DNA of 48,663 nucleotides from an uncultured bacterium. Lineage in GTDB: Bacteria > Patescibacteriota > Gracilibacteria > Absconditabacterales > Absconditicoccaceae. Shown one piece after another: positions 11,146-48,663 of the stretch. How positions within the stretch are numbered: position 1 is the stretch's first letter; every line of letters begins with the position of its first letter. The notes beneath the pieces were generated by a model. It had not been told where the DNA came from. It ran no database searches and saw only the letters and a program-made list of their open reading frames with translations. The stretch spans positions 1 to 48,663 of the forward strand of contig CALMEO010000118.1 in the NCBI GenBank assembly GCA_937862935.1, in the 5' to 3' direction. Made by a program: the position numbers and the translations under genes.

Positions 11146-12531
11146 TTACCCAATAGATCCTTCCATTTCAAGTTCTACTAATTTATTCAATTCTCCAGCG
11201 TATTCTAAGGGAAGTTTTTTAATAACCGAAGAAAAGAATCCATTGACGATCATAGTTGTTGCTTTGTCTTTTGTTAGTCAGCGAGCCATGAGGTAGAAAA
11301 GTTCAGATTCATTTATTTTCCCTGCACTCGCTTCGTGGGCTACGATGGCGGTATCATTTTTTGATTGAATTTTTGGGATGGTATTGGACACAGAAGTATC
11401 ATCAAATAGTAATGCATCGCATTGCGTATTATTTACTGCATAATCTGCTCATGGAGCAATATTGACTAGTCCACGATAAGTATTAATTCCTCATTTTCTG
11501 GAGATAGATTTGGCTACGATATTTGATGATGTATGTTTTCCTATATGGATTGCTTTGGATCCTGTATCTTGATGCTGTCACTCCCCTGCAACTGCTATTC
11601 CCAACATATCTGTTGTGCTGTAATCTCCTTTGAGGATAGAACAAGGATAGAGCATAGTTGTACATGATCAAAGATTTCCATTAACCCATTCCATATAACT
11701 ATGTTCTTCTATGATAGCTCTCTTGGTATTTAGATTGTAGGTGTTTGTTGACCGATTTTCTACTGATGAATATTTCATTTTAGCGTTTTTCCCTACAAAA
11801 ATCTCTACGAGTCCAGCATGGAGTGCAGCTTTATCAAACTTTGGTGCTGAACATCCTTCGATGTAGCTTCCTTCAGCATTATCTTCTATGATGATCATAG
11901 TATGCTCAAATTGTCCTCAGCCATAGGTATTCATACGAAAATATGCTTGTAATGGATCAGTAAGCTTGACTCCTTTTGGTACATAGATAAATGTCCCTCA
12001 GCTCCAAACGGCTCCATGTAAAGCTGCAAATATATGATCATTTGCAGGCACCAATTTCATAAAATACTTCTTCACTAATTCTGGATATTTGATTACTGCT
12101 TGTGGCATATCCTCAAAAATTATGCCTTTTTTTGATCGTTTTTCTTGGATTTGATGATATACGTTGAGGGAATCATATTGTCCACCAGCTCCAGCGAGAT
12201 ATTTTTGTTCAGCTTCTGGAATTCAGAGTCTTTTGAACTTTTCTTTTATCTCTACAGGTACATCTTCCCGGTTATTTGTATATCATTCGTTATCGCTTTT
12301 GGGTTTTGCATAATAGACAATATCATCGAGATCGAGTTTAGAAAGATTAGGTCATCGTGTTGGCATTTTCATGTTTTTGAAAATTTCTAGACACTGTAAA
12401 CGATGTTTTAACATTCGTTCTGGTTCTTTTTGATCAGCAGAAATTTTTCTCACGGTATCTTCTGTGAGTTTGCTGAGATAGAGCTCATATTCTATCTTGT
12501 CTGATGATTCGAGTGTTGATCTTAGTGACAT
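11146..12531 (-). CDS. sufB: Fe-S cluster assembly protein SufB
   Basis: 461 residues, full length for SufB, the scaffold component of the SufBC(D) complex that assembles Fe-S clusters. Family segments in order: AVWSGGTFIYVPKGVKL, EGCSAPKFD, NTKRA, MEWVNGNLGS, GGGQHQDTGSKAIH, the conserved beta-helix core, and C-terminal EMEGSIG. Four codons fall on conserved Trp positions: CGA at 12415-12417 (EPExML), CGA at 12355-12357 (MPTxGPNLS), CGA at 12136-12138 (QEKxSKKG) and CGG at 11752-11754 (ENxSTN, QNW in homologues). True arginines (YFRMN, TYRG, MARG) use CGT or CGC. No SufD or SufS is present in the window. Confidence 0.95.
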
Positions 12532-17875: not shown

Positions 17876-18187
17876 GCTAATTTACTAATATATAAATATG
17901 ATGTTTGATACTCGATTTATAAATAATATATTTGAATTGCTGTATGGTTATTGTATCTAGAATCTCCTATCTAGAATATGGTATAATTATATCCTAAAAC
18001 GCTAAAAAAAGCAAAAAAAACTATAACTATTTAAGCTTAAAATATGCTTTTAGTTTATTGTGGTATTATTATTATTTGAATATATTGACTTATTTTTTTT
18101 GTAATCTATAAATTTTGTATAAGTATGTTGTTTTTTGTTCGTTTTTTTTTACACTTTAAATATGATTTATTTTATTATTTTTTTTCT
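17876..18187. other. Intergenic region with a 10-bp direct repeat
   Basis: 312 bases between divergent pilB and the Holliday-junction-resolvase-related gene, strongly AT-rich, without an ORF I support. TATCTAGAAT occurs twice, at 17954-17963 and 17968-17977, 4 bases apart, and a plus-strand TATAAT follows at 17982-17987. This looks like a possible operator over a promoter, but no gene starts near it. Confidence 0.35.
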
Positions 18188-18577
18188 ATGAATATTGACC
18201 TTTGGCTCATTAGTATATGAGTTATTATATGAATACTTATCTGATATCTTGTCGCAAAATTATATTTTATGATTAGAATAAAAAGACAAAGAAGTGATGC
18301 AGTAACAAGGTCTCGTAACGTAGTTCTTGGACATGTTCATGAAAAAATAGCTCCTTTGCTTCCAAATTTTCCATATTCGTACAAGGATTTGGTTTTTTTA
18401 TGAAAATGAGTCGATTATCTTGTCCTTGATGGACTCTCAAAAGGTAATCTGCGTGAAATAATTTTTTTGGAGGTAAAAAGTGGTAGTTCACAACTTAATA
18501 AAAATGAACAGATGGTCAGAGAATGTATACATCAAAAACGTGTGAAGTATGAAATATGGAGAAATTCCGCTACCTAA
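18188..18577 (+). CDS. Holliday-junction-resolvase-related nuclease
   Basis: 129 residues. A hydrophobic N-terminal segment (about residues 4-28) is followed by a nuclease-like core: FLGKGVDYLVLDGL, then EIIFLEVKSGSS with the E-V-K triad of the PD-(D/E)xK fold, then KRVKYEIW at the end. This is the pattern of the PF10107 family described as related to Holliday-junction resolvases. TGA codons lie in the anchor and before the core. No partner gene is adjacent. Confidence 0.8.
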
Positions 18578-18611: not shown

Positions 18612-18639
18612 TTGATATTCTTAATATCTTTCTTATAAT
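18612..18639 (+). promoter_or_regulatory. Promoter for the tRNA
   Basis: TTGATA and TATAAT with a 16-base spacer, about 100 bases upstream of the tRNA. The stretch between holds a tRNA-like 5' half and a CTCC-CGCT-GGAG hairpin that I cannot name. Confidence 0.5.
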
Positions 18640-18738: not shown

Positions 18739-18812
18739 AGGATTGTGGTGAAATGGTATCACATCGGTCTCCGAAGCCGAATTCATAGGTTCGATTCCTA
18801 TCAATCCTGCCA
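18739..18812 (+). tRNA. tRNA-Trp-like with anticodon CCG
   Basis: A complete cloverleaf: acceptor AGGATTG/CAATCCT, D-arm GTGA/TCAC, anticodon arm TCGGT-CTCCGAA-GCCGA (anticodon CCG at 18771-18773), T-arm ATAGG-TTCGATT-CCTAT and encoded CCA at 18810-18812. A standard decoder would call it tRNA-Arg(CCG). The A1-U72 pair, G2-C71, G3-C70, discriminator G73 and an anticodon arm like bacterial tRNA-Trp, with only the last anticodon base changed, make it a tRNA-Trp that reads CGG. A hairpin (CCTGCC-AAA-GGCAGG) overlaps its 3' end at 18806-18820. Confidence 0.85.
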
Positions 18813-18854: not shown

Positions 18855-19535
18855 ATGAATAAAAAATTACAGACAATATTTGATTATCTCAAAGAACTCT
18901 TTCCTAATCCAGAAACTGAGCTTCGCTACTCTACTCCTTTTCAATTTGTAGTAGCGGTAATGTTGTCTGCTCAAGCTACGGATGTGCAGGTCAACAAAGT
19001 AACTGAGAAACTTTTTAAAAAAATAAAAACATCTGATGATCTTTTAAAGATGTGATTTGCTCCCTTTGAACGTAGTATCAAATCAGTAAATTATTATCAT
19101 TCCAAGGCTAAACATATTTTTGCTACCACAACAATAATGAATAATGAAAAATTAATAATGAAAAATGAAGGAAAGAAATATTTAATACCAGATACTCTCC
19201 AAGAACTCCAAAAATTTCCTTGAATTTGAATTAAAACAGCAAAACTCATCGCTCATGTCTTGTTTGATAAACCATTTATTGCTGTAGATACCCATATCCA
19301 TAGAGTAAGTAATAGGCTTGGACTTGTCAAAACAATAACACCGGAGAAGACATCAGAACTTCTTGAAAAGATTATTCCAGATAGTTACAAAGATCATGCA
19401 CATCATGCCTTGGTGTTGTTTGGTCGTTATCATTGCAAAGCAGTGAAACCGAAGTGCGATACATGTAAACTACAAAGACTATGTAACTACTATAAAAAAA
19501 ATGTTATTGTGAACACAGCGAAGCAATCTAAGTAA
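18855..19535 (+). CDS. nth: Endonuclease III with a repeat-derived insertion
   Basis: 226 residues. This is the base-excision-repair glycosylase/AP lyase: helix-hairpin-helix PGIGIKTA with the catalytic Lys, the catalytic Asp in AVDTHIHR, and the [4Fe-4S] cysteines in the C-x6-C-x2-C-x5-C spacing at the C-terminus. Between the HhH and the N-terminal domain lies an unusual extra stretch, TTIMNNEKLIMKNEG (about residues 92-106), encoded by an AT-rich sequence that resembles the dispersed repeats of this genome. It appears to be an in-frame insertion in a loop. TGA codons give glycines in the HhH. Confidence 0.92.
19133..19170 (+). repeat. AT-rich dispersed repeat arm inside nth
   Basis: AATAATGAATAATG followed by AAAAATTAATAATGAAAAATG, close to the arms of the intergenic repeats at 26680, 24681 and 45768. 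It is in frame and adds about 13 residues to endonuclease III. Confidence 0.55.
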
Positions 19536-31322: not shown

Positions 31323-32066
31323 TTATTTTCAGTAGTTGCGCAAATCTGCCATTTCATTGAACCAAACTAATGCTTTTTTATATGATTCTATATCAAATTC
31401 TGGACATTTTTTCCCGGTAAAATACAATTCTGCATATCCTATCCGCCATGACATAAATCCCGATGTTCTTTGTGCTTGATCTCATTTTGTTCTTATTACT
31501 AGTTCAATGGGTGGAACATCCCCCAAATCTAGGCTGTTGCTAATTTCTTCTTCGGTCAATGTTGTGAGGTCCTTTTTAGTTTCCGCTAATTTTTGTATTC
31601 CTCTTATTATTTCATCTCTTCCTCCGTAATTTATAGCAAACACAAAATATCTGTCTGTATTATATGTATTCCTTTGTTGCTTAGCTAGTAAATATTCTCT
31701 AAAGTCGTCAGTAATACCCTTGAGATTTCCTATTACCTTGAAGTTTATCTTATGTTCTTTCATAAATTCATCAAGATCTTCATCTACAATTTTGTACATA
31801 GTCATAAGAAAATCAAACTCCTCCTTTGGTCTCTTTTGTCCATTTTCTGTACTCAATCATCGAAGTGTAAATATTTTGATGTCTGTTTCAGTAAATGTAT
31901 GGATAATGAGTTCAATTGCTTTTTCGTATGATATCATATATGCTTCAGCTACTGTTTTATCGTTTGCTTTGGCTCGTGTTCTATTCCCATCAGGTATAAT
32001 AGCTACATGTTTTGGATATTGCATCTGTGATAAATAAGAATGAAAATAATAAAAAAAATATTCCAT
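31323..32066 (-). CDS. uppS: Undecaprenyl diphosphate synthase
   Basis: 247 residues. Makes the C55 carrier lipid for cell-wall polymers by adding isopentenyl units. Motifs: HVAIIPDGNRTxAKAN (active-site Asp; x is CGA at 31974-31976, normally the Trp of DGNRRW), NYGGRDEI, and IRTKGDQAQRTSGFMSW then GYAELYF. The start at 32066 gives the normal length; an ATG at 32024, nearer the first strand, is possible. The PAP2 phosphatase at 19588 could act on its product. Confidence 0.9.
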
Positions 32067-32172
32067 AGAATGTACACCAATTGATATGTTTTTGTTCTGG
32101 ATATTCAAGGTAAAAAAAATCTGTTTTCCTTTTCTATATTCTCTGTATTTTTTTAATATATTAATTATTAAA

Positions 32173-40494: not shown

Positions 40495-42979
40495 TTATTT
40501 TCATCGTGTACAGCTCGTAGATCATCGTAGTGATAATCATCGACCACATGAGCTATTTATAACAATTCATGTCGTTCATCATGTTGCATAACAATTTATC
40601 GTTGAAGTTATATTATATTGATTTGTCGCTGTCAATACTGGAATAAAGGTTCAGATAGTTTTATATTCATGAGTTGTTCCTGAAAATGATGATACGTTAT
40701 TTATTCCTATAAAATCACCAAAATTTAATGAATATATTGCTCGATTTTGTTCTATTCCATTAAACATTACCTCTAATGGTAAATTTCATGATGTAGGATT
40801 CATAGTAAAACTACATTGTGGCATCTCTCGTTGACATGATGAGGTACATCCATCATTATTAGTTATATTTCCATCATCACATAGTTCTCCTGTTTGTACT
40901 ACTCCGTTTCAACATGCTATATTTAGCACACAAGATCCTCAACTTAAAGTATATCATGGAGCACATATATAGTTACATGATGAAGTACTTGGAGTTGTGT
41001 TGTATGCATATATATTTATAGGCGTCCATAGCGTACATAATGTTCCATTTGAATCTCAACATGTTTGTAAAATTCCTGTTGCTGTATTTGCTATAGCATT
41101 TACGGGAAGAGAAAGACATGCTTCGTTTTTTGTTTCTCGCTGACATGATGAGGTACATCCATCATTATTAGTTATGTTTCCATCATCACATTCTTCTTCT
41201 GCTGATTTTTCTACTACTCCATTTCAACACGATACATTTAATACACATGTAGATATACTTCAGCTCCAGGTATATCACGAAGCACATGTGTATTGACATG
41301 CTGTTGTACTGGGCACTGGATTATATGACGGAGTCAGATTTGATGGCATCCGTAATTGACACGTAGTTCCATTGGAAACGCTACATGTTTGTGGTATTTG
41401 TGTTACGGTATTTGCGATAGTATTTGCCGGTATACTTCAACAAGTACCTGTTCTTGTTTCTCGTTGGCATGATGAGGTACATCCATCATTATTAGTTATA
41501 TTTCCATCATCACATAGTTCTCCTGTTTGTACTACTCCATTTCAACAAGCTACATTTAGTACACATGTAGATATACTTCAGCTCCAGGTATATCATGTGC
41601 TACATTTATAGTAACATTGTGTTGTACTTGGTGTTATATTGTATGTATAAGTAAGACTTGGTAGCCAAGATGTACATGTTGATCCATTAGATGTATTACA
41701 TGTTTGTGTTACGTTAATTGCTGTGTTTGGTAAGGTGTTTGCTGGTAATGATGTACATGCTTGTGGTATTGGATTAGTTTCTCGTTGACATAATGAGGTA
41801 CATCCATCATTATTAGCTATATTTCCATCATCACATAGTTCTCCTGTTTGTACTACTCCATTTCAACAAACTATTGGCAATCAAGTATCACATGTTCATC
41901 ATAGAACAATCCAAGTAGCTCCATCGCATCATTGAAAACAACTATCTTCAAATTTTACCGTTCATGCTTCTGTTGGTGAACAATTTTGTAGTAATCAAGA
42001 TCATGATCATAAATTTTTTATTCACAATCACATCATATTAAGATTTAGTGTTGCTATATGGTTTCATAGATTGTCTCATATTCATGTTCATGCTGGTCAT
42101 GCTGGTCATGTCGCTCATTGTGCTCACGTAGCTCATGTATTTCCTTGAGGTCACTGTATTGTCTCTATAAATCAACTAATATGATTATAAATACTACCGC
42201 TTGTTGAACCTATTATTGTTCCACTAGCATTAGTACCTAAAACCACTTTGTTTGATAAATTACTTATTCTGACATTACCACCATTTATCTCCAATCTTTC
42301 TTGGGGATTGATTGTTCCGATACCTACATTGCCTAATGGATTGATAGTAAAATATTCTTGATGACCAAGTGCTCCTATAAAAAACACATTAGGATTTGAA
42401 TCTCATCATGCAATCCATGTCTCCACTGGTGTTTCTAAACGTAAACTCGCTGCATTTCCTGCCACTGTTTCTTCTATATAGATATCTGTATCTCATGATC
42501 CTTTGACATGTAGTTTACCATCCATTATCGCGGTTCCTATACCTACATTCCCTTGAGGGATACTATACATATCGTTGCCTGCTATCATCCAATCTTCATC
42601 ACTTGATGGTACAATTACTGTTTCACCAGTCACTCCTCATGAGACAACAAGGTTGGTAGTGTATGCATAGATAAGATTTCATTGATTATCTACTCCGAGA
42701 ACTTTCCCTGCGAAATTTCCTGGTGCTGCGGTAATTCCACCACCTGTAGTATTTACATATGTTAAGATAATTAAAATCAAATCGTGTTGTTCCATTACTT
42801 GTTCCATCATTTGTTATGGTTATCCTTCCTATCGTCTGCCATGCATTATTTATATCTGAAAGAATATTTATATCAGCAAGAGTAATTACTGATGAAAATC
42901 ATAAAACTATTGTAAGAAACAATAATATCATATTTTTTATTGAAAGATTCTTTGATCACACTCTATGAACTTTGAACAT
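40495..42979 (-). CDS. Large surface protein: collagen-like, DUF4215 and PKD segments, with a frameshift
   Basis: Two overlapping frames together make about 825 residues. The first (42686-42979) holds a signal peptide (KNMILLFLTIVLG) and the start of a beta-rich domain; the second (40495 up to about 42810) continues without a new signal. The shift is near 42765-42790 and needs one base gained or lost. Segments after it: VGIG repeats with GNVGIG..., a collagen-like stretch (GPQGNTGATGAQ..., near 42100) in which most Gly codons are TGA, four DUF4215 cysteine-rich repeats (CGNGVVQTGELCDDGN, NNDGCTSSCQ), and a PKD-like end (LNFGDF). It is probably an adhesin or host-contact protein. Confidence 0.75.
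40834..41885 (-). repeat. Four DUF4215 coding repeats
   Basis: Near-identical blocks with a common GAGGTACATCC start at about 40841, 41150, 41474 and 41795, at periods of 309, 324 and 321 bases. Each encodes CGNGVV...CDDGN and NNDGCTS then C. Between blocks are diverged CxxCxx segments with YTWSGSISTCVLN. Confidence 0.8.
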
Positions 42980-46879: not shown

Positions 46880-47536
46880 TTAGGTGCGAGCTTTATTGAG
46901 AAAATCATTAAATGGTTTCATAATCTTAAATAGAGAAAGACAGTATGTAGAGAAGTTTGGATCTAATACTTTCTTTTCTGATATACTATGTCCTAAATAT
47001 CGTGATTTCATCTTGAGGAACTCCCCTGCTTTGTGGTTTGTATCAAATCACTTTGGTACTCTCTTATATTTTTCTCAGAGTACTTCACCGAATGCTTTCT
47101 TGAATGTTGGAGCGGTAATTATTTTTTGTCGTTGTGTATAATGTTTTGCTATATATATTCTCACTCTTTCCGCTACAGCCCTTGGTGGGAGATATATTCC
47201 TCCACCGATAAAATTTTCTTCTATGCCTATATCTACATAATATCCTGCACCATTTCCATGTTTTCCTTCTTCGCGGATGATGAGTCCAAAATTAGTTTTA
47301 TAGGGAGATTTATCTTTGGTAAAGCGGATATCTTTATTGAAACGAAAGGTTGCATCTTTGATATCTAACATTCAAATGCTTGTATCTAGTTCCCTCGTTT
47401 TCTCTATGAGTTTTTTTCCAAATTCCCAGAAATTATCTCTGACTAGGTAATAGAGATCCCTATTTTTATTCATTCGTTCTAGATTATTGTTTTCTTTGAC
47501 TGCTTTGAGAAAAGCAAAGGTTACTTCTGTAATCAT
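46880..47536 (-). CDS. DUF2461 family protein
   Basis: 218 residues. TFRFNKDIRFTKDKSPYKTNFG near residue 60 and GYYVDIGIEENFIGGGIYLP fit the TIGR02453/DUF2461 family of unknown function. A TGA-coded Gly follows FGEVL. The start ATG 47536 lies 8 bases after the ligA stop, so it is the second gene of the ligA operon. Earlier alternative starts overlap ligA and are not used. Confidence 0.8.
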
Positions 47537-47544
47537 TTTTATTA

Positions 47545-48663
47545 TTAAAATAAACTTTGTGTTGTTGGTTTTTTTTTGACTTCTGTACTCATATGTTTGA
47601 GAAATGGGAATTGTTTTACAATAGTATCCCATCATTCGTATATCTGGATTCCAAGCTCTTGCGCCTTATCTTTTTTACTACTTGCTTTTTCTCCAATCAG
47701 AATAAAATCTGTCGTTTTTGTAGGAGATTCGTTGAAAATATAGCCATTACGTTGAAAATATTCTGTGATGGTTTTTCTTGATACATCAAATGATCAGGTG
47801 ATGGAAAAACTTCCTTTCACTTCATCGGTACGTATATGATCAGTATATTTTTTTGGATCCATATTCACTCCATATGCTTCTAACTGTTTCAAAAGTTTTA
47901 TATTATCTTTGTCTTGAAAAAATGTGCTTATACTTTCTACACTTTTCTCTCCTATTCAGTATATAGACCTAAGTAATTCCTGATTAGTTACTAGATCTAT
48001 CATCTTTAATGTATCATTTATCATTTCTTTTGCTAGGTCTTGTGCCATCTTTTTCCCTACATGCGAAATCCCTAGTCCATTGAGTAATCTTCGTAATGCT
48101 TTCTGTTTTGACTCCTCTACTCCATTGGTTATTTCAGCTACTTTTTTGTCTCCAAATCATGGAAATCTACGCAATTGCATCTGTACTGTATGGTCTGTTA
48201 GCTTATAGATATCGGCAATATTCTCTATAATTTTATTATCTACTAAAATATCAACAATACTCTCTCCTATCCCCTGGATATCCATACAATTTTTGCTGAC
48301 AAAATGTTGGATTTGTTGTTTTATCTTATCGGGACAATAGGAATTTGTACAGTAATAATGCATATCTCTATTGCTCACAGGTTCGTGACATGAGGGACAT
48401 GTTTCTGGTGAATTAATCATACTTTCTTCGCCTGTTCTGCGGTCAGTAATCACACTTACAATATAAGGAATCACTTCGCCGCTTCTTTGTAACCATATTC
48501 GATCATTGATATGAATATCTTTTTGTTTGATAAAATCTCGATTGTGTAAACTCACTCTTTTGAGTGTTGCTCAGCTTAATTGTACGGGTTCAAAATTTGC
48601 TACTGGCGTAAGGATTCCAGTTCTTCCTACTTGAACATCTACGGAAGTAATTTGTGTAGCTGC
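47545..48663 (-). CDS. ligA: NAD-dependent DNA ligase, C-terminal part
   Basis: 372 residues are inside the window; the N-terminal adenylation domain is beyond 48663. Order: end of the nucleotidyltransferase domain and OB fold (QVGRTGILTPVANFEPVQLS), VSLHNxDFIKQKDI, the zinc finger CPSC...CTNSYC, helix-hairpin-helix motifs (IQGIGESIV, GLGISHVGKK), and a C-terminal BRCT (GSFSITGSFDVSRKTITEYF). It seals nicks in replication and repair. CGA codons at NxDF and NDxIW are Trp or Arg in relatives. TAA stop at 47545. Confidence 0.93.

Follow-up and report, generated by a model that had tools for sequence, protein, structure and literature searches.

CGG specifies arginine in almost all other life. 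In the stretch of DNA analyzed here (the window: contig C118, 48,663 nt), ARAGORN found exactly one tRNA, at 18739-18812 on the forward strand, with anticodon CCG, and named it tRNA-Arg, the label that an earlier sequence-only reading had expected from standard annotation. The question raised by this locus is whether the label holds, i.e., whether the tRNA inserts arginine or tryptophan at CGG. Judging from sequence, we put the probability at roughly 93% that the gene encodes an elongator tRNA that would be charged with tryptophan by tryptophanyl-tRNA synthetase (TrpRS) and would insert tryptophan at CGG. The elements on which this reading draws are as follows:

18612..18639, forward strand: promoter-like TTGATA-16-TATAAT (11/12), ~100 nt upstream of the tRNA gene, weak evidence
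18739..18812, forward strand: putative tRNA-Trp(CCG) gene with encoded 3' CCA, labeled tRNA-Arg(CCG) by ARAGORN
18739, forward strand: A1, whose partner U72 lies at 18808; A1-U72 is a minor Trp element
18757, forward strand: U20 in the D loop; the bacterial Arg determinant A20 is absent (Arg identity set from PMC9976931)
18771..18773, forward strand: anticodon C34 C35 G36, for the codon CGG
18809, forward strand: G73 discriminator, the main bacterial Trp determinant, contacting Gln152 and Glu155 of E. coli TrpRS

Against the Rfam model RF00005, the tRNA scored 67.9 bits (E 5.5e-15; cut-off 29), and the structure of minimum free energy is a perfect cloverleaf of 7, 4, 5, and 5 pairs. The fold energy itself is unremarkable (z -0.93), so that the gene owes its support to the covariance score and to conservation; promoter-like sites upstream were not commoner than in shuffled sequence. 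In Sprinzl numbering, the acceptor stem reads A1-U72, G2-C71, G3-C70, A4-U69, U5-A68, U6-A67, and G7-C66, the anticodon loop C32 U33 C34 C35 G36 A37 A38, and a 4-nt variable loop and G73 complete the picture; the Trp-like acceptor start, discriminator, and anticodon loop described in the sequence-only reading are all present as stated. The main determinant of arginine identity in bacteria is A20, while tryptophan identity is set by G73, the first pairs of the acceptor stem, and the anticodon (PMC9976931). Given U20, G73, and these acceptor pairs, the CCG tRNA lacks the key Arg element and carries every Trp element except A36. It does combine C35 with G36 and G73, in keeping with the C35, G/U36, and A/G73 of tRNA-Arg, a combination that is not exclusive to arginine. 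It shares G73, A1-U72, G2-C71, G3-C70, C34, C35, and the lack of A20 with canonical bacterial tRNA-Trp(CCA), but differs from it in having G36 rather than the A36 that is read by Ser227 of TrpRS, a variable loop of 4 rather than 5 nt, and a different D stem. The combination of a CCG or UCG anticodon with G73 and no A20, used as a criterion in PMC8629427, is found in the window tRNA.

The host assembly (1.32 Mb, 141 contigs, 95% complete, 4.2% contamination) appears to belong to the Absconditabacterales, as its closest named TrpRS loci are those of candidate division SR1 (78-79%) and of other Absconditabacterales. ARAGORN reported 62 tRNAs in the stretches of the genome covered, including a CCA tRNA-Trp (C35:6372-6445) and a UCG tRNA (C106:7918-7992) with G1-U72, G73, and U20, i.e., the UCG relative with the same Trp-type signature that had been expected elsewhere in the genome. 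The genome's own Arg(UCU) and Arg(CCU) tRNAs carry A20 and A73. Among the 62 tRNAs, none from the host contigs was an Arg tRNA for CGU/CGC; a GCG tRNA pattern was matched in 46 of 49 genomes of the order, so this genome's copy probably lies in an assembly gap. A tRNA(UCA) at C88:18958-19031 is the reader of UGA as glycine, and on most contigs 20 to 40% of glycines are spelled UGA, with UGA=Gly throughout.

We then surveyed the order by searching anticodon-loop patterns over 49 genomes and confirming the matches with ARAGORN. The CCG tRNA was found in 42 of the 49 genomes and the UCG tRNA in 39. Order CCG tRNAs carry G73 in 43/43 cases, A1-U72 in 41/43, and A20 in 1/43, and the UCG tRNAs G73 in 38/39, N1-U72 in 33/39, and A20 in 1/39, while the GCG tRNA of the order is Arg-like (A73 18/21, A20 18/21, G1-C72 20/21). 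The Trp-type identity first proposed for the CCG tRNA thus extends across the order, in which true Arg tRNAs carry A20 and A73. Within the order, only one or two hits were of the Arg type (L155, L212), and these appear to stem from contaminant contigs. Outside the order, most CCG and UCG tRNAs are of the Arg type, with A73, A20, and mostly G1-C72. Two UGA-recoding genomes outside the order, G059 (C4:314124) and G012 (C5:3059), have a CCG tRNA with G73 and A1-U72 and no UCG match (L280, L281), and in two others (G014, G051) the UCG tRNA is of the Arg type and CCG gave no match; in this small sample, the Trp-type CCG and Arg-type UCG states look mutually exclusive. The CCG tRNAs of G059 and G012 are in line with the mixed picture already published for Gracilibacteria.

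The position of the gene is conserved as well. The same two genes flank the CCG gene in this genome and in four other members of the genus:

18044..18577, forward strand: upstream neighbor, endonuclease related to Holliday junction resolvase (PF10107)
18855..19535, forward strand: downstream neighbor, endonuclease III-like HhH-GPD protein (PF00730)

This kept position, together with conservation in 42/49 genomes, excludes a chance structure. The 20 best matches to the CCG tRNA among annotated phage tRNAs were mostly Trp or Gln, and none was Arg.

The ancestry of the tRNA is a separate matter from its present identity. Within the order, the CCG and UCG tRNAs have the same type of D stem and a variable loop of 4 nt, neither of which is seen in the order's CCA tRNA. 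In nearest-neighbor comparisons of the tRNA body that included the acceptor stem, tRNA-Trp was nearer (0.589 vs 0.515 for outside CCG tRNAs), while leaving out the acceptor stem gave a tie, at 0.617 to outside tRNA-Trp and 0.625 to outside tRNA-Arg(CCG). The sequence-only description of a tRNA-Trp with CCA changed to CCG therefore stands for its Trp-type elements and not for the history of anticodon mutation that it implied. Either an Arg tRNA may have changed its identity or a Trp tRNA its anticodon, the body outside the acceptor stem being equally near to both.

Protein evidence on the meaning of the codons comes in part from TrpRS itself. One of its tryptophans is invariant in 80 of 81 outgroup sequences, and the codon for it in this genome is CGG. 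Across 29 order sequences (27 distinct), the same column holds UGG 18 times, CGG six times, and CGA five times, and never another Arg codon; among the 27 distinct genes, 11 of 16 CGR codons fall in this single column out of 327. Three window genes with CGR codons align as follows:

11146..12531, reverse strand: SufB, with three CGA and two CGG; CGA39, CGA59, and CGG260 stand opposite Trp of E. coli SufB, and none opposite Arg
31323..32108, reverse strand: UppS; CGA45 stands opposite Trp, CGA83 mostly opposite Tyr, and CGG222 opposite Gln of solved homologues
46880..47635, reverse strand: TIGR02453/DUF2461 protein with three CGA; 184.1 bits with CGA as Trp, 164.7 as Arg

When ten residues were tried for CGR in SufB, its NCBIfam score was highest with Trp (648.2 bits), followed by Tyr (631.3), with Arg at 619.6. 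Summed over eleven window proteins with CGR, scored with one model per protein, Trp exceeded Arg by ~67 bits, nine of the differences being positive and two negative. Scoring CGG only, in ten proteins on other contigs, gave Trp an advantage over Arg of only 8 bits, or ~18 without a FabH-like and a PhoH-like gene, from which most of the negative differences came; Trp was clear in MiaA and in an MTH1-like Nudix protein, where CGG stands at a conserved tryptophan (in WFR and WNGFGG, respectively). Overall, both CGA and CGG occur opposite conserved tryptophans, with weaker evidence for CGG alone. A pairwise codon test of the genome against outgroup flanks yielded almost no CGR columns. Among 76,556 codons from ORFs of at least 150 aa, some of them possibly spurious, UGG was used 64.8, CGA 55.0, and CGG 6.8 times per 10,000, which indicates that the reassignment of CGA is far advanced and that CGG is still rare: CGA, read by the UCG tRNA, bears most of the recoding, and CGG is a minor codon. 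Reading as glutamine, as for CGG in Peptacetobacter, was ruled out, as the tRNA has no U35 and SufB scored 28 bits higher with Trp than with Gln. The window also encodes, at 40495-42810 on the reverse strand, a 771-aa protein with DUF4215 repeats that contains 46 UGA and nine CGR codons, several of the CGA in a repeated CTSxCQ-CGA-E motif.

The two CGG-bearing genes set apart above, FabH-like and PhoH-like, score better with Arg than with Trp and have CGR at conserved Arg positions. Of their 26 and 33 Gly codons, respectively, none is UGA, in a host that spells about a third of its glycines as UGA. They look imported, with their standard-code spelling retained, and import would explain their Arg-type CGR. 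The FabH-like gene (C88:963-2033, forward strand; L358) has CGG where solved homologues have Arg or Lys and is probably an import unadapted to the host code. In the PhoH-like gene (C70:1384-2976, reverse strand; L355, also L371-L385), the CGR codons lie at conserved Arg positions, and over 15 order genomes UGA makes up 3 of 429 Gly-type codons (counted stop to stop) vs 286 of 679 in the flanking genes. A search of 32 genomes from the same class but other orders found no such gene, and phage PhoH is distant. The simplest explanation is that the gene was imported repeatedly from standard-code bacteria; active avoidance of UGA may be an alternative. Runs of genes with little or no UGA also occur at C70:9888-12996 (L355) and C65:8975-11788 (L352), on contigs that otherwise use UGA; some genes of these runs carry Bacteroidota-like signal peptides, and the runs are either imported islands or assembly joins.

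Could the gene nevertheless be an ordinary tRNA-Arg(CCG), charged by ArgRS, with CGG still meaning arginine? C35 and G36 are Arg determinants, and G73 is allowed in bacterial tRNA-Arg (PMC9976931); the body without its acceptor stem is as near to outside tRNA-Arg(CCG) as to tRNA-Trp, and the FabH-like and PhoH-like genes do place CGR at conserved arginines. We nonetheless consider this very unlikely, given U20 in place of A20, A1-U72, and G3-C70, a Trp signature kept order-wide beside the real Arg tRNAs of the same genome, and tryptophan at the CGR columns of genes inherited vertically, among them the invariant tryptophan column of TrpRS. Just as improbable is an ambiguous code in which CGG is partly Trp and partly Arg, through competition between TrpRS and ArgRS or through partial decoding. 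The rarity of CGG would suit such an early stage of reassignment, and some genes do have CGR at Arg positions. Those genes, however, lack UGA and are accounted for by import; CGA occurs nearly as often as UGG, and TrpRS itself spells its invariant Trp as CGG.

Least probable, to a point where we give it almost no weight, is that the gene belongs to a phage or to some other organism whose DNA ended up in this bin. Such misbinning probably did occur: a phage-like contig (C55) in the assembly carries ~30 tRNAs, and the D arm of its tRNA-Trp(CCA) resembles those of the CCG and UCG tRNAs. The CCG gene, however, sits on a contig of 48.7 kb in which in-frame UGA is frequent (229 per 10,000); its two neighbors are those seen in four genus members, and the tRNA occurs in 42 of the 49 order genomes. 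The contig C55 was ruled out as the source, since none of its tRNAs has this anticodon and the CCG tRNA is order-wide and syntenic. This phage-like contig (104.6 kb; L031, 70000-88000) carries its tRNAs, Arg(ACG) and Trp(CCA) among them, amid GIY-YIG homing endonucleases, and also encodes QueC and a Por secretion tail domain protein; it is probably a Bacteroidota phage binned by mistake.

If the tRNA is charged with tryptophan, as we favor, TrpRS has to accept G36. A search with PF00579 found one TrpRS and one TyrRS in this genome, and each order genome searched gave one strong TrpRS match. In the E. coli TrpRS-tRNA structure, G73 is contacted by Gln152 and Glu155, C35 by Thr225, Asp226, and Lys274, A36 by Ser227 and the Thr225 backbone, and C34 by the backbones of Tyr270 and Gly271 (PMC12135181). 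Order TrpRS retain Gln152, Glu155, Thr225, and Lys274 in 29/29 sequences, while Asp226 is retained in 8/29 (72/80 outside), Ser227, the reader of A36, in 2/29 (64/80 outside), and position 271 is Lys in 27/29 but Gly in 73/80 outside. These changes are suggestive of a relaxed reading of bases 34 and 36 with the readers of G73 and C35 retained, although the enrichment at the pocket was not significant (changes in 3 of 6 contact columns vs 27 of the 123 conserved columns elsewhere; Fisher p = 0.14; one clade), and Ser227 is also replaced, by Asp, in several Gracilibacteria in which the search turned up no Trp-type CCG tRNA. A change from M to K at TrpRS column 220 was left out of account because E. 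coli also has K there. The earlier demand that TrpRS accept a changed anticodon agrees with the single TrpRS found, whose A36-reading position is altered in most of the order.

Accommodation of the tRNA could then proceed as follows. ArgRS would not take the CCG tRNA, because A20 is missing, and TrpRS would recognize it by G73, C35, and the first pairs of the acceptor stem; at base 36, which is A in tRNA-Trp but G here, the changes in the anticodon pocket would relax recognition and thereby permit charging. By extension, the order's only TrpRS may have co-evolved with the code, the loss of Ser227 and the change of Gly271 to Lys letting one enzyme charge the CCA, CCG, and UCG tRNAs via G73 and C35. 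The code would by now be locked in, because the enzyme's own invariant Trp is CGG or CGA in 11 of 29 genes. We regard this co-evolution scenario as having about even chances.

The reassignment is already published for this clade, and the genome is a further member. According to Shulgina and Eddy 2021 (PMC8629427), CGA and CGG were proposed to encode Trp in Absconditabacteria, with tRNA-CCG and tRNA-UCG genes whose features are consistent with tryptophan; the clade, the two codons, and UGA=Gly are the same here. CGA reaches 55 per 10,000 here against 65 for UGG in ORFs of at least 150 aa, and stays below 37 per 10,000 in that study, figures that are not strictly comparable because the latter were counted in Pfam domains. 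The same source describes a Trp-featured tRNA-CCG that reads CGG in Anaerococcus and Onthovivens (Bacilli, RFN20), which differ in that CGG alone is reassigned, there is no tRNA-UCG, and CGA stays Arg via an inosine tRNA. In the portions of PMC8629427 consulted, we found no mention of near parity of CGA with UGG, of standard-code genes inside recoded chromosomes, of a recoded invariant Trp in TrpRS, or of its pocket residues.

Sense-codon changes away from arginine are rare in bacteria, and the case for Absconditabacterales has so far been based on computation. The tRNA pair, the self-referential codons of TrpRS, and its pocket residues make the reassignment concretely testable in vitro. NCBI table 25, applied to the clade in recent papers, keeps CGA and CGG as Arg; if all CGR codons in vertically inherited genes are Trp, about half of this genome's tryptophans (in the ORFs counted, ~470 out of 970 Trp-type codons) would be annotated as arginine. 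The consequences would extend to gene transfer and phages, in that imported genes using CGR for arginine would be mistranslated.
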